DNA of 33,727 nt from a virus. The translations under genes were made by a program, and so were the position numbers. This document shows, in pieces, positions 10,473 to 20,582 of the stretch (its first letter is position 1; every line of letters begins with the position of its first letter). Under the pieces are notes generated by a model. It saw only the letters and a program-made list of their open reading frames with translations. It searched no databases and was not told the origin of the DNA. The DNA is taken from positions 1 to 33,727 of IMG/VR virus record IMGVR_UViG_3300020156_000461. The stretch is one strand, 5' to 3'.

Positions 10473-10922
10473 ATGAAGTCCGAAAACCAAGCCCGCCTGA
10501 TCAAGGCGATCCAGACCTGCCGGCGCAAGGTGTCCGGACTGGACGGTGACGACGACTGGCGCGATTTCCTGGAGAAGGCGGCGGGCGGTCGTTCGCTCAA
10601 GGCGATGTCCGGGCCGCAGCTGGGGCGCGTCCTGGATGCGCTGCACTCGGCCGGCGCCCCGCGGCTGGCGCCGCCGCCGGCCGGCCGGTCGCGTTACTCC
10701 GCCTCGCCGCAGATGGCGATGGTCCGGGGGCTGTGGCTGGAACTGGCGGATCTGGGAGCGGTCCAGGACCGCTCTGAGAGCGCTCTCAGCGCCTTCGTGA
10801 AGCGGCAGACCCGACAGGATTTCGGCCGCCTGGATCAGCAGGCGGCCGAACGGGTCATCGAGGCGCTGAAGAGCTGGCGAGCGCGGACGCTGGCGAAGGC
10901 CGACGGGGCGTCGGCATCATGA
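10473..10922 (+). CDS. gemA: GemA/gp16-like regulatory protein (DUF1018)
   Basis: The 149 residues match the Mu GemA (gp16) family. They show an N-terminal helical start with ARLIKAIQTCRRKV, the conserved SPQMAMVRGLWLELADLGAV, and the C-terminal SALSAFVKRQTR...QQAAERVIEALKSWRARTL. Mu GemA affects host gene expression and supercoiling and sits just before mor, the same place as here. A clear Shine-Dalgarno site is missing; AGTACGTGTGAG precedes the start, so expression may be weak or coupled to the upstream gene. Confidence 0.9.
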   Translation: MKSENQARLIKAIQTCRRKVSGLDGDDDWRDFLEKAAGGRSLKAMSGPQLGRVLDALHSAGAPRLAPPPAGRSRYSASPQMAMVRGLWLELADLGAVQDRSESALSAFVKRQTRQDFGRLDQQAAERVIEALKSWRARTLAKADGASAS

Positions 10923-10927
10923 CGCGG

Positions 10928-11302
10928 TCATCGCTTGCATTCCTTGGACATGCCGGCCAGCGCCGCGACCTGCGTGGCGGCGTAATAGTCCAGGCCGGTG
11001 GTCTTCTTGAAGCTGGCGTTCAGCGCCTCCAGGTGCGGTTCCTTCCACTTTTCCCGCGCCTGGAAGTGTTCAACCAGCATCTCCTTCGACGGCGATTTCC
11101 CCGGCGGCACCGCCGGATGCATGCCGAACAGCTTGTCGGCCTCACGTTCCAGCTTCACCCTTTCGTCGTTCTTGTACTTGCACCAGGTCGGCAGGACGGC
11201 GCGCACCTGCGCCTCGCTGGGCAGGTCGGCCGCTGCCGCCGGCACGGCGGCGAGGAGTGTGGCGAAGGCAAGCGCGGCGGGAAGCCGGTGCGGGCGCATC
11301 AT
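10928..11302 (-). CDS. Secreted hypothetical protein on the opposite strand (possible lysogenic-conversion gene)
   Basis: This leftward gene encodes 124 residues. Residues 1-25 are a clear Sec signal peptide: basic start, ALAFATLLAAVP core, and AAA-AD cleavage region. The mature part is about 99 residues, Lys- and Glu-rich, with two Cys (in PTWCKYKND and near the C-terminal KECKR) that could form a disulfide. GGAG lies about four bases upstream of the first of two ATGs, supporting translation. It is the only leftward gene besides the repressor, so it may be expressed in the lysogen. A moron or conversion function is inference, and I do not recognise the family. Confidence 0.75.
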   Translation of the reverse strand: MMRPHRLPAALAFATLLAAVPAAAADLPSEAQVRAVLPTWCKYKNDERVKLEREADKLFGMHPAVPPGKSPSKEMLVEHFQAREKWKEPHLEALNASFKKTTGLDYYAATQVAALAGMSKECKR

Positions 11303-11385: not shown

Positions 11386-11802
11386 ATGACGGCCGCGCCG
11401 CCCTCCCTCGTCCTGCCGGGCGTGCTGGGCGAGATCGCCGAGATCGCCGGCGCCCCGGCGGCCCTGGCCGTCGCGCGCGAGATGGGCGGGCGGCGGGCCT
11501 ACTTCCCCGCCAAGCCGAAAGCCGATCACTGGCTGGTGCGCGCGGTGGGGGCCGAAACGGCCGCGGCGATCTGCGCCCATCTGGTGGCCGGCGGGACCGG
11601 TCTGGAGATCCCGGTGCCTCTTGGCCCGACCGGATCGCGTGCCCAGGTTTGGTCGACGATCCAGCGGGCGCTGTCGGCCGGCGAGACCTCCGGTCGCGCG
11701 GCGCAGCTCGCCGGCGTTGACGAACGGACGATCCGGCGTCACCGTAACGGCCATTCCGGGGCGCGCCGCAGCGGCGACCCCGACCAGGGCGAACTGTTCT
11801 GA
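11386..11802 (+). CDS. mor: Mor/C-family late or middle transcription activator
   Basis: The protein has 138 residues. The N-terminal dimerisation part follows the family pattern: LPGVLGEIAEIAG...ALAVAREMGGRRAYFPAKP, then AICAHLVAGGTGLEIPVPLG. The C-terminal helix-turn-helix runs about 88-122 (IQRALSAGETSGRAAQLAGVDERTIRRHR). In Mu, Mor activates the middle promoter and its paralogue C activates late promoters. Only one family member is visible here, so it may do both jobs. It lies immediately before the lysis genes and before the first of two dyads proposed as its binding sites. The start is the ATG at 11386, after a G-rich GGGGGGCGG; the longer open frame upstream is not supported. Confidence 0.9.
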   Translation: MTAAPPSLVLPGVLGEIAEIAGAPAALAVAREMGGRRAYFPAKPKADHWLVRAVGAETAAAICAHLVAGGTGLEIPVPLGPTGSRAQVWSTIQRALSAGETSGRAAQLAGVDERTIRRHRNGHSGARRSGDPDQGELF

Positions 11803-11818
11803 CCACGACGCCCTGAAG

Positions 11819-11836
11819 CCCGGACAAGTGTCCGGG
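11819..11836 (+). promoter_or_regulatory. Late operator dyad 1 (predicted activator site of the lysis promoter)
   Basis: CCCGGACA-AG-TGTCCGGG is a perfect 8+8 dyad with a 2-base centre. It lies in the 93-base spacer after the mor-like gene and ends 59 bases before the endolysin ATG. The same dyad, with another centre, recurs at 19523-19540. Both copies share flanking G before and TGT after. Position matches Mu Plys. No clear -35 or -10 box is visible, which would fit an activator-dependent promoter. Confidence 0.7.
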
Positions 11837-11895
11837 TGTGTGGGAACGGGAGCGAGCACCAAAGTGGGCGGCACAACCGCCAGGGTGCCCCCGTC

Positions 11896-12423
11896 ATGTC
11901 CTACAGCTCCCCCAGCCTGTCGCCGCGCCACCTGCGCGACCACGTCATCAAGCCCGTCCTGACGCACTGCGCCGGCGACGATGCCCGCGGCTTCGACAGC
12001 CCCGCGGCCGTCGAGCTGGTGCTGGGCACCGCCGCGCATGAGTCCAAGCTGCGCGCGCTGGACCAGATCACCGGCCCGAACGACGGGACGCTCGGGCCGG
12101 CCTTCGGGCTCTGGCAGATGGAAGGCCCGACCCACGACGACATCTGGCGGAACTTCCTGCTGCACCGGCACGGGCTGGCCGCGCGCATTCGCGCCATGCA
12201 GGGGGAGTTTCCGCACCCCCACCACCAGCTCGTCACCAACCTGGCCTACGGCGCCGCCATGTGCCGCGCCCACTACTTCCGCCGGCCCGAGCCGCTGCCG
12301 GCCGCCGGGGACTTGGCCGGCCAGGCCGCCTACTGGAAGCGCCACTACAACACCAGCGCCGGGAAGGGCACGCCGGACCAGTACGTCCGCGACTGGCGCG
12401 AGCTGGTGGCGCCGTACCTCTGA
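11896..12423 (+). CDS. Putative endolysin (lysozyme-like peptidoglycan hydrolase)
   Basis: The protein has 175 residues from the ATG at 11896. The key segment is LVLGTAAHESKLRALDQITG (42-61), in which Glu49 in AHES is a likely catalytic glutamate, as in lysozyme-like and SLT folds. FGLWQMEGPTHDDIW and a second helical part with NLAYGAAMCRAHYFR follow, and the end is DWRELVAPYL. I recognise this as a phage family found directly before holin genes. There is no signal peptide, so it would need a holin. The first position after the predicted late promoter and before the holin-like gene supports a lysis role. Confidence 0.8.
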   Translation: MSYSSPSLSPRHLRDHVIKPVLTHCAGDDARGFDSPAAVELVLGTAAHESKLRALDQITGPNDGTLGPAFGLWQMEGPTHDDIWRNFLLHRHGLAARIRAMQGEFPHPHHQLVTNLAYGAAMCRAHYFRRPEPLPAAGDLAGQAAYWKRHYNTSAGKGTPDQYVRDWRELVAPYL

Positions 12424-12436
12424 AGGAGACCCCCGC

Positions 12437-13015
12437 ATGGAAATCGCGTTCCTCATGGTTCTCGCGCTGGCGCTGCTGGTGTGGGGCATCTACTCCCTGG
12501 TCCGTCCGGGCGCCCGGCTCGGCCATGCCGTCGCCGGCCTGCTGTCGGTCGCGGCGGGCGGCGTCATGCTGATCCTGCTGGCCGTGCCGGCGCTGGCGGC
12601 GGACGGCGCGCAGGTCTACGCCGTGTCGATCCCGCCGGACCTCGTGGCGTCGGTGATCGACGTGGCCATCCTCGCCCTGTCGGCGCTGGGTTCCTGGCTG
12701 ATCAAGCGGGGGGCCGACTGGCTGAAGCTCGATCACGAGAGCAAGCTGGTCGAGCGGCTGGAGCTGGCCATGCTGCCCGCCCTCACCTTCGCCCGCGAGC
12801 GGCTGCTGGCCCAGGGCAAGGACCTGAGCAAGGTCGAGGTGCGTTCAGAGCTGGTCGGCGTCGCCGCGACCTACCTGCTGCCGAAGATGCCCGGCGTGCT
12901 GCGGAACCTGGGCATCGACGCCGAGGGCCTGCGCGAGCGCCTGACCGGCCGCCTCGACCTGGTGGCGCCGCTGCCCGGCCAGGACACGGTCAACAGCGCC
13001 CAGATCCGGGAGTAG
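12437..13015 (+). CDS. Holin-like membrane protein
   Basis: The protein has 192 residues. Three hydrophobic segments are visible: about 3-23 (IAFLMVLALALLVWGIYSLV), 32-55 (AVAGLLSVAAGGVMLILLAV) and 70-89 (VASVIDVAILALSALGSWLI). A charged cytoplasmic-type tail with helical content follows (ESKLVERLELAMLPALTFARERL). The third segment plus tail resembles LLH-type holins. It would let the endolysin reach the cell wall. A strong AAGGAGA at 12423-12429 precedes the ATG. The pairing with the endolysin is the chief evidence, and the exact holin class is uncertain. Confidence 0.7.
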   Translation: MEIAFLMVLALALLVWGIYSLVRPGARLGHAVAGLLSVAAGGVMLILLAVPALAADGAQVYAVSIPPDLVASVIDVAILALSALGSWLIKRGADWLKLDHESKLVERLELAMLPALTFARERLLAQGKDLSKVEVRSELVGVAATYLLPKMPGVLRNLGIDAEGLRERLTGRLDLVAPLPGQDTVNSAQIRE

Positions 13016-13019
13016 CGCC

Positions 13020-13238
13020 GTGGCCGACGACGCCGACAACGCGCAGGCCGCGACCGACCGCTTCCTGTCGCACGCTCTCGCGGGCCGCATCACCGGCCCA
13101 CGTCCCGGCCCGGGTTCGGACGCCTGCGTCCGGTGCGGCGAGCCGATCCCGGCCGCCCGCCGCCACGCCGTCGACGGCGTGGCGACCTGCGTGTCCTGCC
13201 AGGACGAACTGGAGCGCGCGCGCCGGAGGGTCGCATGA
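13020..13238 (+). CDS. TraR/DksA C4-type zinc finger protein, 72 aa
   Basis: C36, C39, C57 and C60 form the C-x2-C-x17-C-x2-C finger of the TraR/DksA family, with CGEPIPAARRHAVDGVATCV typical of the family. TraR-like proteins bind the secondary channel of RNA polymerase and mimic DksA with ppGpp. The family's N-terminal helix with an Asp-containing tip is represented by the short acidic start. The start codon is GTG at 13020. It lies between the holin-like and DUF2730 genes and is common at this place in Mu-like phages. Confidence 0.85.
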   Translation: MADDADNAQAATDRFLSHALAGRITGPRPGPGSDACVRCGEPIPAARRHAVDGVATCVSCQDELERARRRVA

Positions 13239-13648
13239 GCATCCTGGCCGAGCTGAAGGAGTGGGGCGCCGCCGTGGCGCTGGTGTCGCCGCTGGTTTCC
13301 GCCGCCCTGCTCTGGTGGCTGTCCCAGCGCTTCGCCAGCCGCAAGGAGTTGGAGGCCGTGCACGTCCGCCTCGACGGCATGGACGATCGCCTGGACGAGG
13401 GCGCCCAGCGCTTCCAGACCATGGACACGGCGATCCGCGAGGCGACCCACGCGGCCGAGGACGCCAAGGAGGCGGCCGAGCGGGCCATCAAGGCGGCGGA
13501 GGAGATCGGTGACGCGCGGCTGGAGGTGGCCGAGCTGCGCGGGGACATCAAGACGCTGAACGCGCTGCTGGTGCGCCTGGAGCGTGACAGCGCGCGGATG
13601 GTCGACGGCCATCTGGCCATGGGAGCGATCGGGGGAGGCAAGGTATGA
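13235..13648 (+). CDS. DUF2730 family membrane-anchored coiled-coil protein
   Basis: The protein has 137 residues: one transmembrane segment (about 10-30, VALVSPLVSAALLWWLSQRF) followed by a long charged heptad-like coiled coil (about 31-125). This is the DUF2730 pattern of Mu-like phages, located between lysis and packaging genes. The shape also fits an inner-membrane spanin, but I found no nested outer-membrane lipoprotein frame, so that alternative is weaker. It overlaps the previous gene by ATGA and has GGAGGG upstream. Confidence 0.8.
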   Translation: MSILAELKEWGAAVALVSPLVSAALLWWLSQRFASRKELEAVHVRLDGMDDRLDEGAQRFQTMDTAIREATHAAEDAKEAAERAIKAAEEIGDARLEVAELRGDIKTLNALLVRLERDSARMVDGHLAMGAIGGGKV

Positions 13649-13950
13649 GCATGAACGAGCAGGTGCGCGCCGTCTTCGACGCCGACCGGCGCCTGTGTTT
13701 CCTGCGCCTGCTGGATGAGAGCGGCGGGCGGGCCAGCACGTCGACGCTGGAGAAGTCGGTGCGCATCTTCTTCTCGCGGGTGGACCGTGCGTCGACCAAC
13801 GCCGATGCCCGCTGGCTGGCCGCCGCCGGCCTGGTCGAGTGCGAGGAGCTGCGGCCCGACCTGATCGCCGTCTCGATCACCGACCGTGGCGAGCGCGTGG
13901 CGCGCGGCGAGGAGCGCGTCGACGGCGTCGCCCGTCCGTCGCGGGATTGA
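13645..13950 (+). CDS. VpaChn25_0724-family Mu gp26-like protein
   Basis: The 101 residues follow a winged-helix-like pattern: RRLCFLRLLDESGGRASTST, a middle helix with STNADARWLAAAGLVECEEL, then IAVSITDRGERVARGEERVDGVARPSRD. The ending with TxRGxxVAxG...GVxRP is the signature I associate with the VpaChn25_0724 family, found just upstream of the small terminase in Mu-like phages. It may help packaging or regulate it; its role is not known. It overlaps the DUF2730 gene by ATGA. Confidence 0.85.
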   Translation: MSMNEQVRAVFDADRRLCFLRLLDESGGRASTSTLEKSVRIFFSRVDRASTNADARWLAAAGLVECEELRPDLIAVSITDRGERVARGEERVDGVARPSRD

Positions 13951-13954
13951 CGGC

Positions 13955-14611
13955 ATGGCCGGCAAACCCTCCAAGGTGGACAAGCTGCCGGACCCGCTGC
14001 GCGAGGGCATCGCGCAGCTGTGGACCTCCGGCCGCTACACCGTCGACCAGATCCTGACCCATCTGCACGATCTGGCCGGCGGCCGGCGCACCATGCTGCC
14101 GCCCGAACTGGACGTGGCGGTGTCGGTGGCGCCCGAGGAGCTGCCGTCGCGGTCGCGCCTGCACGCGCACCTCCAGGGCGTCGACCAGGTCGCCGAGCGC
14201 CTCCAGCGCTCGCGCTCCGTCGCCGAGGCGCTGATGCGGAAGCTTGGCGACGAACCCGAAAGCCGGACGGCCCGCCTCAACATCGAGCTGCTGCACTCGG
14301 CCGTGCTGGACCTGTTCATGGCGGCCGATGAACAGCAGGCGGCCGGCGACGGGGACGGCGCGTCGCCCGACGGCCCGCCCGTGTCGTTCACGCCGGAAGC
14401 CGTGGCTAACCTGGCCAAGGCCCTGAAGGATCTGTCGTCGGCCCGCAAGGCCGACGCCGACCTGATCCTGCGCATGCGCAAGGAGGTGGCCGCGGAGATG
14501 GTCAAGAAGCTGGACGTCGCGGAGAAGGCGGCCAAGGCGGCCGGCGAGAAGGGGCTGTCGGTCGAGCGCATCGCCCAGCTCCGCCAGGTGCTGGCCGGCG
14601 GGGCGGCGTAG
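13955..14611 (+). CDS. terS: Small terminase subunit (DUF3486, Mu gp27-like)
   Basis: The protein has 218 residues from the ATG at 13955. The N-terminus begins GKPSKVDKLPDPLREGIAQL, with the DUF3486 helix-turn-helix (SGRYTVDQILTHLHDL), as expected for the DNA-recognition part of a small terminase. The rest is helical, including a long central helix about residues 80-125 and a C-terminal coiled part (KLDVAEKAAKAAGEKG). It would recognise the pac site at the phage left end and hand DNA to TerL. It sits four bases before the large subunit. Confidence 0.9.
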   Translation: MAGKPSKVDKLPDPLREGIAQLWTSGRYTVDQILTHLHDLAGGRRTMLPPELDVAVSVAPEELPSRSRLHAHLQGVDQVAERLQRSRSVAEALMRKLGDEPESRTARLNIELLHSAVLDLFMAADEQQAAGDGDGASPDGPPVSFTPEAVANLAKALKDLSSARKADADLILRMRKEVAAEMVKKLDVAEKAAKAAGEKGLSVERIAQLRQVLAGGAA

Positions 14612-14615
14612 CGCC

Positions 14616-16316
14616 ATGCAGGACGGGACGGCGGCGGTGTGGATCCCGCCAGAGAGCGCCATCGACCGGATCGAGGCCGGCCACGCCACGGCGGCCGACC
14701 TCGACCCGCTGTCGGAAGGCTTCCTGCTGAAGCACCAGCGCGACTGGATCGCCGACCCGTCGCCGCTGAAGATCGGGCCGAAGGGCCGGCGGACCGGCAT
14801 GACCTTCGCCGAGGCGCACGACCACGTGCTGATCGCGGCGGCCAGCCGCGATGCCGGCGGCGACCACTGCTGGTACATCGGCGACACCGCCGAGAAGGGG
14901 CGCGAGTTCATCGCCACCTGCGCCAACTTCGCCCAGACCGTCGCCAACGAGCTGTGCGCGATCGAGGACTTCGTCTTCGACGATCAGGAGGAACAGCCGG
15001 ACGGCACGGTCAAGACCCGGCAGATCACCGCCTGGCGCATCCGCTTCGCTTCGGGCCACCGGATCACCGGCCTGTCGTCGCGGCCGGCGGCGATCCGCGG
15101 TCTTCAGGGCGTCGTCGTCATCGACGAGGCGGCCTTCCACACCGACGTCGGCAAGGTGCTGGAAGCCGTGCTGGCCCTGCTGATCTGGGGCGGCAAGGTG
15201 CGCATCATCAGCTCGCACAACGGCGCGCTGAACGCCTTCAACACGCTGCTGAAGGAAGCCGAGAGCGGCAAGTTCCCCGCCACGATCCACCGCGTCACCT
15301 TCGACGACGCCGTGCGCAACGGCCTGTACGAGCGCGTCTGCTTCGCCCGCGGCTGGACCGCCAGCGTCGAGGGCAAGCGGCGCTGGTACCATCAGATCCG
15401 CGCCGCCTACGGCACCCGCACCGCCGCCATGCGCGAGGAGCTGGACGCGGTCCCGCGCGAGGACAGCGGCACCATGCTGGCGCTGGCGCTGATCGAGGCG
15501 GCCATGACGCCCGACTACGCCGTGGCGCGCTGGGAGAAGCCGGAGCCGGACGCCGAGGGCCGGGAATTCGTCGACTGGCCGGAGGTCCGGCGCCGCGCCC
15601 ACATGGCGGCCTGGATCGAGGCGCACGTCCAGCCCGTGCTGGAGCGGCTGCCGGAACGCTGGACCTACGGCATCGGCGGCGACTTCGCCATGCGCCAGGA
15701 CCGCTCGGCCTACGCCGTCGCCTTCGCCGACCAGTGGCTGGCCCGCCACGTGCCGCTGCTGGTCGAGGCACGCGAGTGCCCGTACGACCAGCAGAAGCAG
15801 CTGCTGTGGCGCATCGCCGACTTCCTTCGCGAAAAGCGCCGCCTGGGCAGCGGCGTCCTGGACGCCGGCGGCAACGGCATGGTGCTGGCCCAGGAGGCCC
15901 GCCAGCGCTACGGCGCCGACCGCATCGTCGAGCTGATCGCCAGCGACGCATGGCTGCGGGTGCACTCCACCCAACTGAAGACGGCGTTCGAGGACCGCAC
16001 GATCCGGATCGGCAAGGATCTCGACGTCCGCGACGATCTGCACCAGTTCCGCCTGGTCAACGGCGTCGGCCGCATCCCCAGCGACGTCCGCAAGGTCGGC
16101 ACGGACGGTGGGCGCCGCCACGCCGACGCGGCGATCGCCATCCTCAACGCCTTCGCGGCCACCAGCGCGCCGGCCGAAGCCATCGCCTACGAGGGCCTGC
16201 CCAAGCGTGGCCTGCCGCCGGCCGGCGACCGCCACGGCTTTTCCGGCGGCGGGGTCATGCAGGCCATGAGCCGCGCCGCCCGCCTTTTGTTCGGAGCTGA
16301 CGATGACCGGTACTGA
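14616..16316 (+). CDS. terL: Large terminase subunit (Mu gp28-like)
   Basis: This 566-residue packaging motor carries an ATPase half with a Walker A-like KIGPKGRRTGMT (52-63), Walker B VVVIDEAAF (166-174, D170/E171) and a coupling motif around IISSHNG (197-203). The RNase H-like nuclease half has Asp356 (GGDFAMRQDRSAYAV), Asp416 (LDAGGNG) and Asp504 (RHADAAIA), the usual three metal-binding acids. It pumps DNA into the head and cuts host-flanked DNA by the headful mechanism in Mu. Its end overlaps the portal gene by 14 bases. The Walker A motif lacks the strict GKT, as is common in Mu-type terminases. Confidence 0.96.
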   Translation: MQDGTAAVWIPPESAIDRIEAGHATAADLDPLSEGFLLKHQRDWIADPSPLKIGPKGRRTGMTFAEAHDHVLIAAASRDAGGDHCWYIGDTAEKGREFIATCANFAQTVANELCAIEDFVFDDQEEQPDGTVKTRQITAWRIRFASGHRITGLSSRPAAIRGLQGVVVIDEAAFHTDVGKVLEAVLALLIWGGKVRIISSHNGALNAFNTLLKEAESGKFPATIHRVTFDDAVRNGLYERVCFARGWTASVEGKRRWYHQIRAAYGTRTAAMREELDAVPREDSGTMLALALIEAAMTPDYAVARWEKPEPDAEGREFVDWPEVRRRAHMAAWIEAHVQPVLERLPERWTYGIGGDFAMRQDRSAYAVAFADQWLARHVPLLVEARECPYDQQKQLLWRIADFLREKRRLGSGVLDAGGNGMVLAQEARQRYGADRIVELIASDAWLRVHSTQLKTAFEDRTIRIGKDLDVRDDLHQFRLVNGVGRIPSDVRKVGTDGGRRHADAAIAILNAFAATSAPAEAIAYEGLPKRGLPPAGDRHGFSGGGVMQAMSRAARLLFGADDDRY

Positions 16317-17988
16317 CAGCCCCATCCTGGGTGCCGACGGGCGCCCCATGAAGCGCGTGGAACGCGCCGCCACGGAGGCGGCGCTGACCGGGGAGGTGGC
16401 TGCCCCCTCGCTGTTCGGCGTCCGCCGCGTCTGGCAGGAGGCGATCGCCCGCGACCTCACGCCGGCACGGCTGGCCGGCCTGCTGCGCCGCGCGGCCGAG
16501 GGCGACGCCGACGCCTATCTGGCGCTGGCCGAGGAGATGGAGGAGCTGGACCTGCATTACGGCTCCGTCCTCGGCACCCGCAAGCGTGCCCTCTCCGGCA
16601 TCGAGCCGCGCGTGGAGGCCGCCAGCGACGAGACGCGCGACCAGGAAATCGCCGACGCCGTCCGCAAGCTGGTCAACCCGCTGGTGTGGCCCGACCTGGT
16701 CGAGGACCTGCTGGACGGCCTGGGCAAGGGGTACAGCGTGGTGGAGATCGTCTGGGACACCGCGGTCACACCCTGGGTACCGGCACGCTACGAGCACCGC
16801 GACCCGCGCTGGTTCGTCTACGACGACGCCAGCCGGCGCCATCTGCTGCTGAAGGACGAGGCGGCGCCGCGGGGCGTCGAGCTGCCGCCCAACAAGTTCA
16901 TCGTGCACGAGCCCAAGCTGAAGACCGGCATCCCCATCCGCGGCGGCTTGGCGCGGCTGGTGGCGTGGACCTTCATGTTCAAGCACTACACGGTGCTGGA
17001 CTGGGTGCAGTTCTGCGAGACCTACGGCATGCCGATCCGGCTCGGCCGCTACGGCGCCGGCGCCGGCGACGCCGACCTGCGGGTGCTGCGTCAGGCGGTG
17101 ACGAACCTGGCGCGCGACGCCGCCGCCATCCTGCCCGACACCATGCGCGTGGAGTTCCAGCAGGTGGCTGCCGGAGGCAGCGGTTGGGAGGTGTTCCAGC
17201 GTCTGGCCGAGTACCTGGACAAGCAGGCCAGCAAAGCCGTGCTGGGCCAGACCATGACGGCCGACGACGGCGCCAGCATGGCGCAGGCCAAGGTGCACAA
17301 CGAGGTGCGCCAGGACATCCGGCGCGCCGACGCCCGCCAGCTGAGCGCCACGCTGAACCGCGACCTCGTGCGGCCGTTCGTCGACCTGAACTTCGGGCCG
17401 CCGCCGAACGGCTATCCGCTGCTGCTGCATCCGGTGCTGGAGCCCGAGGACGTCAAGCTGCTGGTGGAGAGCTTGGTGGCACTGGTGCCCATGGGCCTGG
17501 AGGTCGAGGCGTCGGTGGTGCGGGACAAGCTGGGCATCCCCGACCCGCCGCCGCCGGAGAAGCGCGGGCCGGAAGTGCGGCTGCTCCAGGCGCCGGCCGC
17601 CGCCCCGCCACCGGCGCCGGCCGATCCCGCCCGCGTCGACGGCGACGTGGCCACCGCCGCCAATCGTGCGTGCCCCAGCTGCGCCACGGCACAGGCGCTG
17701 AACCGGGAAGGCGAAGCCGACGCCCTGGACGCGCTGGCGGACGCGGCGCTGGACGGCTGGCGGCCGGTCATGGCGCCGCTGGTCGACCCCGTCGTCGACG
17801 CGATCCAGTCGGCCGGCAGCTACGAGGAGGCGCTGGCTCTGCTGCCGGAGCTGATGGAGCGGATGGACGCGGACGAGCTGATGCGCTCGCTCGCCCGCGC
17901 CACCTTCCTGGCGCGCGCCGCCGGCGACGCCGGCGATCTTGATGGTGAGCGCGCTTCGCGCGCCGGCGATGCGGGTGACCTGCCGTGA
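16303..17988 (+). CDS. Portal protein (DUF935, Mu gp29-like)
   Basis: The 561 residues match the Mu gp29/DUF935 portal family: an N-terminal clip and wing region with EEMEELDLHYGSVLGTRKRA, then GKGYSVVEIVW, HRDPRWFVYDD, PPNKFIVHEPK, AWTFMFKHYTVLDWVQFCETYGMPIRLGRY, and a stem-like SKAVLGQTMTADDG. The dodecameric portal is the vertex for DNA entry. The C-terminal part (about 430-561) is Pro/Ala-rich and variable, with a CPSC at about 462-465, and ends with a short repeated GDAGDL unit. It overlaps terL by 14 bases and the MuF gene by ATGA-type coupling (GTGA). Confidence 0.95.
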   Translation: MTGTDSPILGADGRPMKRVERAATEAALTGEVAAPSLFGVRRVWQEAIARDLTPARLAGLLRRAAEGDADAYLALAEEMEELDLHYGSVLGTRKRALSGIEPRVEAASDETRDQEIADAVRKLVNPLVWPDLVEDLLDGLGKGYSVVEIVWDTAVTPWVPARYEHRDPRWFVYDDASRRHLLLKDEAAPRGVELPPNKFIVHEPKLKTGIPIRGGLARLVAWTFMFKHYTVLDWVQFCETYGMPIRLGRYGAGAGDADLRVLRQAVTNLARDAAAILPDTMRVEFQQVAAGGSGWEVFQRLAEYLDKQASKAVLGQTMTADDGASMAQAKVHNEVRQDIRRADARQLSATLNRDLVRPFVDLNFGPPPNGYPLLLHPVLEPEDVKLLVESLVALVPMGLEVEASVVRDKLGIPDPPPPEKRGPEVRLLQAPAAAPPPAPADPARVDGDVATAANRACPSCATAQALNREGEADALDALADAALDGWRPVMAPLVDPVVDAIQSAGSYEEALALLPELMERMDADELMRSLARATFLARAAGDAGDLDGERASRAGDAGDLP

Positions 17989-19223
17989 CGGCGTACAGCG
18001 AGAAGCCCGGGTACAGCTTCCCCACCGGCCCCGATCCCGAAACGCTGGCGTACCTGAAGGCCAAAGGCTGGGCGCCGGCCTTCAGCCACAAGGACGTGTG
18101 GGGGGAGGAGCACGCCTTCGCCTTCATGGTGGCCAAGGCGACCCGGATGGACGTGCTGCGCACCATCCGCGAGGAGCTGGAACGCGCGCAGGCCGCCGGC
18201 CTGCCGTTCGAGGCGTTCAAGCGGAACCTGACGCCGCGCCTGCAGGAACTGGGATGGTGGGGCGAAGGCGAGGTGCCCGATCCGAAGGCGGACGGCGCCC
18301 TGCGTCCCGGACAGCTCGGCAGCCCGCAGCGGCTGCGGACCATCTACGAGGCCAACATCCGCACGGCGCACGCCGCCGGCCAGTGGGCACGGATTGAACG
18401 CAGCAAGGCGGCGCTGCCCTATCTGCTGTACCAGCTGGGTCCGTCGGAGCGGCACCGGCCGGAGCACGCGGAGAAGAAGGGGCTGGTGCTGCCGGTGGAC
18501 GATCCCTTCTGGCGCCGGTGGATGCCGCCCAACGGCTGGGGCTGCAAGTGCCGGGTCCGGCAGGTCTCGGCCGCCGAAGTGCGGCGCCAAGGCTGGGAGG
18601 TGTCGCCGTCTCCGGAGGTGCCGACGCGGCGCTGGACGAACGACCGGCGCGGCGAGACGATCGACGTGCCGGTCGGCATCGACCCCGGCTGGGACACCAA
18701 TCCGGGCCTGACGCGACGCCGGAACCTCGACCGCTGGGCCGTCGACAAGCTGCGCGACGCGCCGCCCGATCTCGCCCGCGCGACCATCTCCGACATGGTG
18801 GCCAGCCCTCGCTTCGCCGAATGGCTGGCGCGGCCCGAGGGCACCTTCGCCGTGGCGCGGCTGTCCGACGCCGTCGCGCAGGCGATCGGCACCAGGAACC
18901 CGGTCGCCGTCCTGTCGGACGAGACCATGGCCAAGCAGAAGGGGGAACTGCCGGGCAGGCGCGGGCATCCGGAATTGACGGTGGACGAGTACCGGAAGCT
19001 GCCCTACCTCGGGTCCGATCCGGAGCTGGTCGCGAAGGAGGGGGAGAACGCCGCCGTGTACCTGTGGCGGGACGGGCGGCTCTACAAGGCGGTCGTGAAG
19101 CGCACCGGCACCGGCGAGGGGACCTTCGTCACCAGCTTCACCCGCGTTGACGACGAGCTGCAGCTGGTCCGGCTGCACCGGCGCGCCGACGAGATCCTGT
19201 TCGACGGGGGCGAGGATGAGTGA
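17985..19223 (+). CDS. MuF-type head morphogenesis protein with C-terminal nuclease-fold (PBECR-like) domain
   Basis: The protein has 412 residues. The MuF/SPP1 gp7-type minor head domain occupies about 40-200, with the end motif PPNGWGCKCRV (181-191), the family's Cys-containing hallmark. It is packaged in the head near the portal. A variable linker follows. The last about 110 residues (IGTRNPVAVL..., GRRGHPELTVDEYRKLP at 324-340, YKAVVKRTGTG at 367-377, FVTSFTRV) match the pattern of the phage barnase-EndoU-colicin E5/D-RelE-like (PBECR) nuclease domains known as C-terminal parts of such proteins. Candidate catalytic residues are H328, K372 and the TSF strand. Nuclease activity is inferred. 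The start codon is GTG at 17985. Confidence 0.9.
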   Translation: MTAYSEKPGYSFPTGPDPETLAYLKAKGWAPAFSHKDVWGEEHAFAFMVAKATRMDVLRTIREELERAQAAGLPFEAFKRNLTPRLQELGWWGEGEVPDPKADGALRPGQLGSPQRLRTIYEANIRTAHAAGQWARIERSKAALPYLLYQLGPSERHRPEHAEKKGLVLPVDDPFWRRWMPPNGWGCKCRVRQVSAAEVRRQGWEVSPSPEVPTRRWTNDRRGETIDVPVGIDPGWDTNPGLTRRRNLDRWAVDKLRDAPPDLARATISDMVASPRFAEWLARPEGTFAVARLSDAVAQAIGTRNPVAVLSDETMAKQKGELPGRRGHPELTVDEYRKLPYLGSDPELVAKEGENAAVYLWRDGRLYKAVVKRTGTGEGTFVTSFTRVDDELQLVRLHRRADEILFDGGEDE

Positions 19224-19418
19224 GGGGCGCACGGTGGGGCCTCGCAGGGAACCCCACATGACGCTCCGGCGGGCGGACCCGCCGTGCTACGGCCGCGAGA
19301 GTTTCACCGTGTCGCGTGCGCCTGCGCTGAATATAGCGCTCCTTGCGCGGCGCGTCACGCCCGGCCCGCTGAGGCCCTGAGCGCCCCTGGCTGCCCCTTC
19401 CCCAGTCGGAGGGGCCGC

Positions 19419-19458
19419 ATACCCCTTAAGAGCCCTCTTACCGGCTCTTAAGGGGTAT
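19419..19458. terminator. Perfect 16-bp inverted repeat, possible terminator
   Basis: ATACCCCTTAAGAGCC (19419-19434) and GGCTCTTAAGGGGTAT (19443-19458) are exact reverse complements with the 8-base loop CTCTTACC. The stem contains a CTTAAG site in each arm. There is no T-run behind it, so it would be an unusual intrinsic terminator. It sits 195 bases after the MuF gene and 65 bases before the late operator dyad, suitable for ending the upstream transcript. It might instead be a protein-binding site. Confidence 0.55.
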
Positions 19459-19522
19459 TCCGAAGGGGCATGGACGATAGACGTCCGCCAGCGTAGGGTT
19501 GGCGGACGGCAGCGAAGCCACG

Positions 19523-19540
19523 CCCGGACACCTGTCCGGG
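19523..19540 (+). promoter_or_regulatory. Late operator dyad 2 (predicted activator site of the protease promoter)
   Basis: CCCGGACA-CC-TGTCCGGG is the same perfect dyad as at 11819-11836, again preceded by G and followed by TGT. It ends 61 bases before the protease ATG, against 59 before the endolysin ATG at the other site. A short GGCGGCAC string also follows both dyads at about 30 bases. Its place upstream of the protease gene equals the PI promoter of Mu. Confidence 0.7.
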
Positions 19541-19601
19541 TGTCAGGCGTTCGCGCGGTCGGACAGGGTGGCGGCACCGCACCACCCACTCCGGCCACCC
19601 G

Positions 19602-20582
19602 ATGCCCGCCCGCCGCGACATCCTTTCCGACACACAGCGCGTCCTGTGCTTCGAGCTGACCGCCGCCGGCGGTCCGGCCCCGGAGTGGATCATGCTGCTG
19701 CCGGCCGGCCCCGAAGTGGTCGGGCTGGACGGCCGCCGCTGGCTGAACGGCAACCCGGCCCGCGTGGTCGAGGCGTTCCGGGCGCGCGGCCTCGACCTCG
19801 TCCTGGACTGGGAGCACGGCAGCGAGACCCGCTCGCTGGCCGGCGAGCGCAGCCCGGCCGCCGGCTGGATCAAGGACGTGGAGCTGCGCGACGGTGCCGT
19901 CTGGGGCCGCGTCGCCTGGACCGACCAGGGCCGCGCCGACGTCGAGGGCGGCGCCTACCGCTACATCAGCCCCAGCTTCGACTTCAGCCGCTCCGCCAAC
20001 GAGATCGTCCGGCTCACCTCCGTGGGCCTGGTGCATGCCCCCAACCTGCCGGCGCTGCCGGCGCTCAATCGCGAGGAGCCGATGGACATCAAAGCCCTGT
20101 GCCGGGAACTCGGCCTGCCGGAGACCGCGAGCCTGGACGACGTCCTGGCCGCCGTCCGCCGGCAGAAGACCGACCTGGACACCGCCCGCAACCGGGCGGA
20201 GACGCCCGACATCGCCCGCTTCGTGCCGCGGGCGGACTACGACGCCGCCGTGAACCGCGCCACCAACGCCGAGAAGACGCTGGCGGATGTCGAGGCCGCG
20301 ACGCTCAAGGCCGACGTCGACGCCCTGATCGAGCAGGGCAAGAAGGAGGGCAAGATCAGCCCGGCGACGGAGGACTTCTACCGCGCCCAGTGCCGTGACC
20401 GCGCCGGCGTCGACCGGTTCCGCGACTTCCTGAAGGCGGCGCCGAAGGTGCTGGATCCGGCGCCGTCCGCCACGGGCAAGCCGCCGGCCGGCGACGGGGC
20501 GCTGTCCGACGAGGACCGCGCCGTGTGCCGCCAGATGGGCTTCACCGAAGAAGAGTGGCGCACGTTCAAGGAGGGCAAGTAG
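19602..20582 (+). CDS. Head maturation protease with C-terminal scaffold part (Mu gpI-like)
   Basis: The protein has 326 residues. The N-terminal about 160 residues are the Mu gpI-type protease: LDLVLDWEHGS (64-74, with D69, E71, H72), SPAAGWIKDVELRDGAVWGRV (84-104) and AYRYISPSFDF (118-128), whose Ser is the likely nucleophile region, then VGLVHAPNLPALPALN. From residue 161 the protein is helical, charged and coiled-coil-like, as a scaffold is. It cleaves scaffold and capsid proteins during head maturation. It is the first gene after the second late dyad. A nested start gives the scaffold alone. Confidence 0.92.
   Translation: MPARRDILSDTQRVLCFELTAAGGPAPEWIMLLPAGPEVVGLDGRRWLNGNPARVVEAFRARGLDLVLDWEHGSETRSLAGERSPAAGWIKDVELRDGAVWGRVAWTDQGRADVEGGAYRYISPSFDFSRSANEIVRLTSVGLVHAPNLPALPALNREEPMDIKALCRELGLPETASLDDVLAAVRRQKTDLDTARNRAETPDIARFVPRADYDAAVNRATNAEKTLADVEAATLKADVDALIEQGKKEGKISPATEDFYRAQCRDRAGVDRFRDFLKAAPKVLDPAPSATGKPPAGDGALSDEDRAVCRQMGFTEEEWRTFKEGK
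20082..20582 (+). CDS. Nested scaffold protein (Mu gpZ-like), same frame as the protease
   Basis: An internal ATG at 20082 (Met161 of the protease) is preceded by GAGGAG at 20073-20078. Translation from it would give 166 residues in the same frame, the helical scaffold without the protease. This repeats the I/Z arrangement of Mu, where Z is made from an internal start. Both the ribosome-binding site and the domain border at residue 160 agree. Spacing of three bases between AGGAG and ATG is short, which would lower efficiency. Confidence 0.65.
   Translation: MDIKALCRELGLPETASLDDVLAAVRRQKTDLDTARNRAETPDIARFVPRADYDAAVNRATNAEKTLADVEAATLKADVDALIEQGKKEGKISPATEDFYRAQCRDRAGVDRFRDFLKAAPKVLDPAPSATGKPPAGDGALSDEDRAVCRQMGFTEEEWRTFKEGK

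Follow-up and report, generated by a model that had tools for sequence, protein, structure and literature searches.

Two copies of an 18-bp dyad, standing before the lysis and head-protease operons of a Mu-like phage, are very probably the operators of its single Mor/C-like activator at two late promoters. This late-promoter reading, proposed in an earlier note on the same DNA, is supported by what the sequence itself provides: the sites and their conservation at both places, covariation between the activator's recognition helix and the operator bases, and a regular spacing to the -10 element that yields a geometry like that of the Mu promoter Pm. Comparison of dozens of relatives further suggests that two activator residues set the operator bases by a simple rule.

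The window analyzed here is the entire IMG/VR record, 33,727 bases long. A scan of the window located CCCGGACA-N2-TGTCCGGG exactly at 11819-11836 and at 19523-19540, as had been described before. Operator 1 has the form CCCGGACA-AG-TGTCCGGG and would mark a Plys-like late promoter, while operator 2, CCCGGACA-CC-TGTCCGGG, would mark a PI-like one; neither is assigned a strand. No third copy with up to three mismatches is present in the window, in line with the earlier inspection by eye. Perfect 8+2+8 palindromes number six in the window, compared with a first-order Markov mean of 2.25, and two palindromes with a common half-site appeared in 0 of 100 first-order Markov sequences. It is thus the recurrence of the half-site, rather than palindromy alone, that exceeds chance.

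The exact dyad was detected in 64 stretches within 55 IMG/VR contigs, a control palindrome of identical composition in 3 stretches. At least 34 of the 55 contigs are Mu-like, judged by homologues or a shared baseplate gene, and in these the dyad typically lies directly downstream of mor, or ahead of either the head protease or the GPW_gp25 baseplate gene. A minority of the IMG/VR matches represent other elements or terminators. Several loci (L011, L017, L020, L025, L035, L044, L059, L061 and L047) carry the dyad in other elements, not Mu-like by homology, with extra TGTCCGG repeats. Among the exact matches listed for bacterial genome contigs, most are background, unrelated to Mu-like phages, so the dyad without its context is not diagnostic; this is the observation that would favor reading the dyads as chance or GC-rich background repeats. 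Such an origin has a vanishingly small probability, and the comparative sequence data already refute it through the excess over the control palindrome, the conserved position, the recurrence within the same phage and the restriction to prophages in hosts. The earlier note had reasoned that scattering of the dyad through a host genome would speak against an operator; in six host genomes checked against the places of Mor genes, every exact copy was on a prophage contig or region.

The candidate binder is encoded directly upstream of dyad 1 (11386..11802, plus strand; 138 aa), with the helix E113-R-T-I-R117-R118-H-R120. It is the only Mor/C-family ORF in the window, as previously noted, and a separate gene for a middle activator was not found in the window phage. 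The protein matches phrog_836, 'late transcriptional activator' (E 4.4e-21), scores 18.0 bits against Pfam Mor, under the cut-off of 24.9, and aligns by profile with Mu Mor and C (hhalign, E 9e-5, probability 59%). By profile it is a distant branch of the Mor/C family, though it falls below the Pfam cut-off. The AlphaFold model (pLDDT 78.7) has a C-terminal HTH, for which Foldseek and VIA-align recovered general HTH domains only (Z up to 4.4); the Mor fold was not among the Foldseek matches returned. The gene is placed between gemA (10473-10922, PF06252) and the lysis gene, the arrangement of a Mu-like phage. On the minus strand, the interval between gemA and mor contains a 124-aa ORF (10928-11302) whose start resembles a signal peptide.

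Downstream of the dyads, 59 and 61 bases separate them from the respective ATG codons, exactly the spacing reported earlier. The gene after dyad 1 (11896..12423, plus strand; 175 aa) is a putative endolysin and the first gene of the lysis operon. The earlier name 'endolysin' holds by position, since relatives encode a lysozyme, M15 peptidase or amidase there; the product itself matches only phrog_3108, whose function is unlabelled, and has no Pfam match. Its structure model is poor (pLDDT 54). The alternation of lysozyme, M15 peptidase and amidase after the dyad in relatives indicates that the site persists as unrelated lysis genes replace one another. After dyad 2, the gene at 19602..20582 (plus strand) encodes a Mu gpI-like head maturation protease (PF10123, E 8.5e-54; phrog_328, E 4e-79). 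Upstream of the protease promoter lies a 16-pair inverted repeat, ATACCCCTTAAGAGCC/GGCTCTTAAGGGGTAT (19419-19460, z -3.9), absent from all other fetched loci, and a second hairpin is found at about 19481-19508, between this repeat and dyad 2. No Rfam families were found in the window.

To sample operators independently of the dyad sequence, we screened about 1,250 alphaproteobacterial genomes for Mor homologues with an HMM, fetched 100 regions and searched them for palindromes with a 2-base spacer and no base preference. Phages selected by the dyad were excluded from the main tests of the recognition code and the -10 element. In many of the sampled phages, a palindrome lying no more than about 60 nt from the stop codon of mor recurs in almost identical form before the protease; the operators found in them are mostly palindromes whose sequence differs between phages. 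Among 47 non-redundant phages with a recognizable protease, 18 have near-identical palindromes (joint score 30/32) after mor and 36-154 nt before the protease. Cross-phage pairings reached this score in 2.3% of cases, a null that is inflated by operators shared among many phages and is hence conservative. The earlier note had also held that homologous phages keeping the genes without the dyad would count against its reading; the relatives have either the dyad or a palindrome of other sequence at both places. The 2-base-spacer method yielded no operator for about half of the Mor homologues sampled and for almost every one from Burkholderiales.

The relation between helix and operator was assessed in 32 operators chosen without the dyad, with the recognition helices aligned so that X and X2 correspond to R117 and R118 of the window protein. 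Half-site position 4 is C in all four operators with Glu or Gln at X and T in all 20 with Phe, Tyr, Trp, His, Leu, Lys or Ala; Arg accompanies G in four and T in two, and neither of the two operators with Thr fits. Overall, the position-4 rule describes 28/32 operators, with a mutual information of 0.785 that none of 20,000 permutations equaled. Position 7 is C in 19/20 operators with Arg at X2, and with other residues there it is A in 11/12 and C in 1/12 (Fisher 1.1e-6). The mutual-information table peaks at X with position 4 and at X2 with positions 7/8. On a helix-free tree, all eight independent X2 changes accompany position 7 (p 0.008); for position 4, well-supported branches offer only three independent X contrasts, none of them against the rule. 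With the rule fixed, held-out Sphingomonadales and Burkholderiales conformed at position 4 in 5/5 cases with covered residues and at position 7 in 6/6. Two cultured phages fit the code at both promoters: POA1180, with a Tyr-Arg helix and GCCTGACA with a 1-base spacer, and RcapMu, with Arg-Arg and CCCGGAC. The exceptions to the pairing of Arg with G are L311 and L322, which have Arg-Arg yet TGACA; in a possible third, L393, the anchor Arg is missing in the alignment. In the dyad-selected phages, all 19 Mor proteins have Arg-Arg.

Since the operator bases covary with the Mor-like recognition helix, the identity of the binder rests on more than gene position. This covariation, scored for Mor, bears on the idea that another protein of the phage occupies the dyads. 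The ParB-like protein (1161-2138), the Ner-like protein (865-1164) and the repressor (1-627) all have DNA-binding domains, and ParB proteins bind palindromes. Binding by any of the three is nevertheless extremely unlikely: besides tracking the Mor helix, the sites precede late operons and not early control regions or phage ends, and L015 and L023 have the dyad, with 4.8 and 6.6 kb upstream of the transposase and no ParB homologue there.

The bases downstream of the operators suggest a promoter with a geometry like that of Mu Pm. Across 51 unbiased sites, A at +25 past the dyad (44/51, p 2e-23) and T at +29 (41/51, p 1e-18) are the sole strongly conserved bases, and they are the second and last positions of a -10 hexamer. 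This fixed spacing places the dyad at -53 to -36. In the window, the predicted -10 hexamers occupy +24 to +29 on the plus strand: CAAAGT at 11860..11865, with a predicted start at about 11872-11873, and CAGGGT at 19564..19569, with a predicted start at about 19576. The dyads lie directly upstream of these elements with no -35, no match to the sigma-70 consensus was obtained at the window dyads, and the sites precede the lysis and protease operons, as expected of Mor/C promoters. The earlier note had pointed to a string, GGCGGCAC, some 30 bases past both dyads. It is present in the window at 11867-11874 and 19570-19577 (+31 and +30), but is missing from the nearest relative, L003; we therefore rejected it as a shared motif and place it outside the conserved architecture. 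The feature that L003 and the window do share is the -10 element (CAAAGT, CAGGGT) directly before the GGCGGCAC position.

This geometry also bears on whether the dyads act between operons as RNA, in the form of either intrinsic terminator hairpins or structures at mRNA 5' ends. If transcribed, they would form 8-pair hairpins with 4-nt loops, and in some relatives (L326, L345, RcapMu) a T run follows the dyad. Neither window dyad, however, has a T run or a terminator match. The distance from the upstream stop to the dyad varies from -5 to more than 200 nt, whereas that from the dyad to the -10 element is fixed, and the paired base changes track Mor helix residues, which an RNA hairpin would not predict. 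Past the operators of other phages we observed mild T enrichment at +3 to +9, with T runs in 14/51 sites; it may be a spacer feature as in Mu lys and mom, or reflect a terminator doubling as an operator. T-rich spacers also occur in Mu late promoters (PMC4461284). Overall, a role as RNA structures is very unlikely.

With the dyads taken as activator operators, the predicted start often falls on the protease start codon: in 24 of 28 protease sites (L350, L355, L004, L358 and 20 others), an in-frame ATG lies at +35 to +37 past the dyad, which implies a leaderless late mRNA as a prediction. The window's own protease site is an exception, with its ATG at +62. At GPW_gp25 sites the ATG likewise lies at 35-37 nt.

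The textbook examples of such activators come from Mu, which uses Mor and then C; the latter acts at Plys, PI, PP and Pmom. The window resembles the C system in that its sites follow the activator gene, before lysis, and precede protease I, and some of its relatives carry a third site, before the GPW_gp25 baseplate gene; the operator sequence of C, by contrast, is unrelated to the window dyad. Used as a positive control in the same palindrome search, Mu gave no strong recurring palindrome pair. In L404 (G004, Methylobacterium), a tandem pair of Mor-like genes flanks a CCCGGACA dyad, an arrangement that recalls Mor and C of Mu. Another parallel is RcapMu, a phage of Rhodobacter capsulatus SB1003: CCCGGACCTGTGTCCGGG stands after its activator gene and before its protease, and its activator RcapMu27, labelled 'late transcriptional activator', has the Arg-Arg helix. 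It differs in having 7/8 pairs in the 2-nt frame and a T run past the dyad, and its record annotates no operator. At Mu Pm, the Mor dyad lies at -51 to -36 and there is no -35 (PMC4287176). The window promoters, with predicted sites at -53 to -36, would have in common with Pm a dyad that ends at -36 and is occupied by a dimer of the activator, together with the lack of a -35 hexamer and a weak -10. Their dyads, in contrast, are palindromes perfect over all 18 bp and belong to late promoters, and the phage was not found to encode a separate middle activator.

By analogy with this known family, the 138-aa activator would bind as a dimer, reading both half-sites, in each of which R117 would contact position 4 and R118 would contact position 7. 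Bound at about -53 to -36, where the -35 element is missing, the dimer would help the host RNA polymerase use the weak -10 elements (CAAAGT, CAGGGT), so that the lysis and head-protease operons would be transcribed late in infection.

Judged from sequence comparison, this is very probably a new variant of the Mor/C-type late operator, with perfect high-G+C palindromes and a readable specificity code. In the open-access literature, only Mu's own Mor/C sites were found described, and neither this operator nor a recognition code for Mor was encountered. The whole alphaproteobacterial Mor/C branch probably relies on the two-residue code (at X, Arg with G, Glu/Gln with C and hydrophobic or aromatic residues with T; at X2, Arg with C7, otherwise A7), such that late operators would be predictable from the protein, and the protease mRNA would be leaderless in most phages, not in the window. 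The binding sequence of a wide, little-described activator branch becomes readable through a residue-to-base rule. The code makes specificity testable with natural protein-operator pairs, and late promoters can be annotated with it in many prophages. It would also help to recognize the activator in phages for which its absence has been reported, such as vB_ThpS-P1 and vB_PeaS-P1 (PMC5488378).
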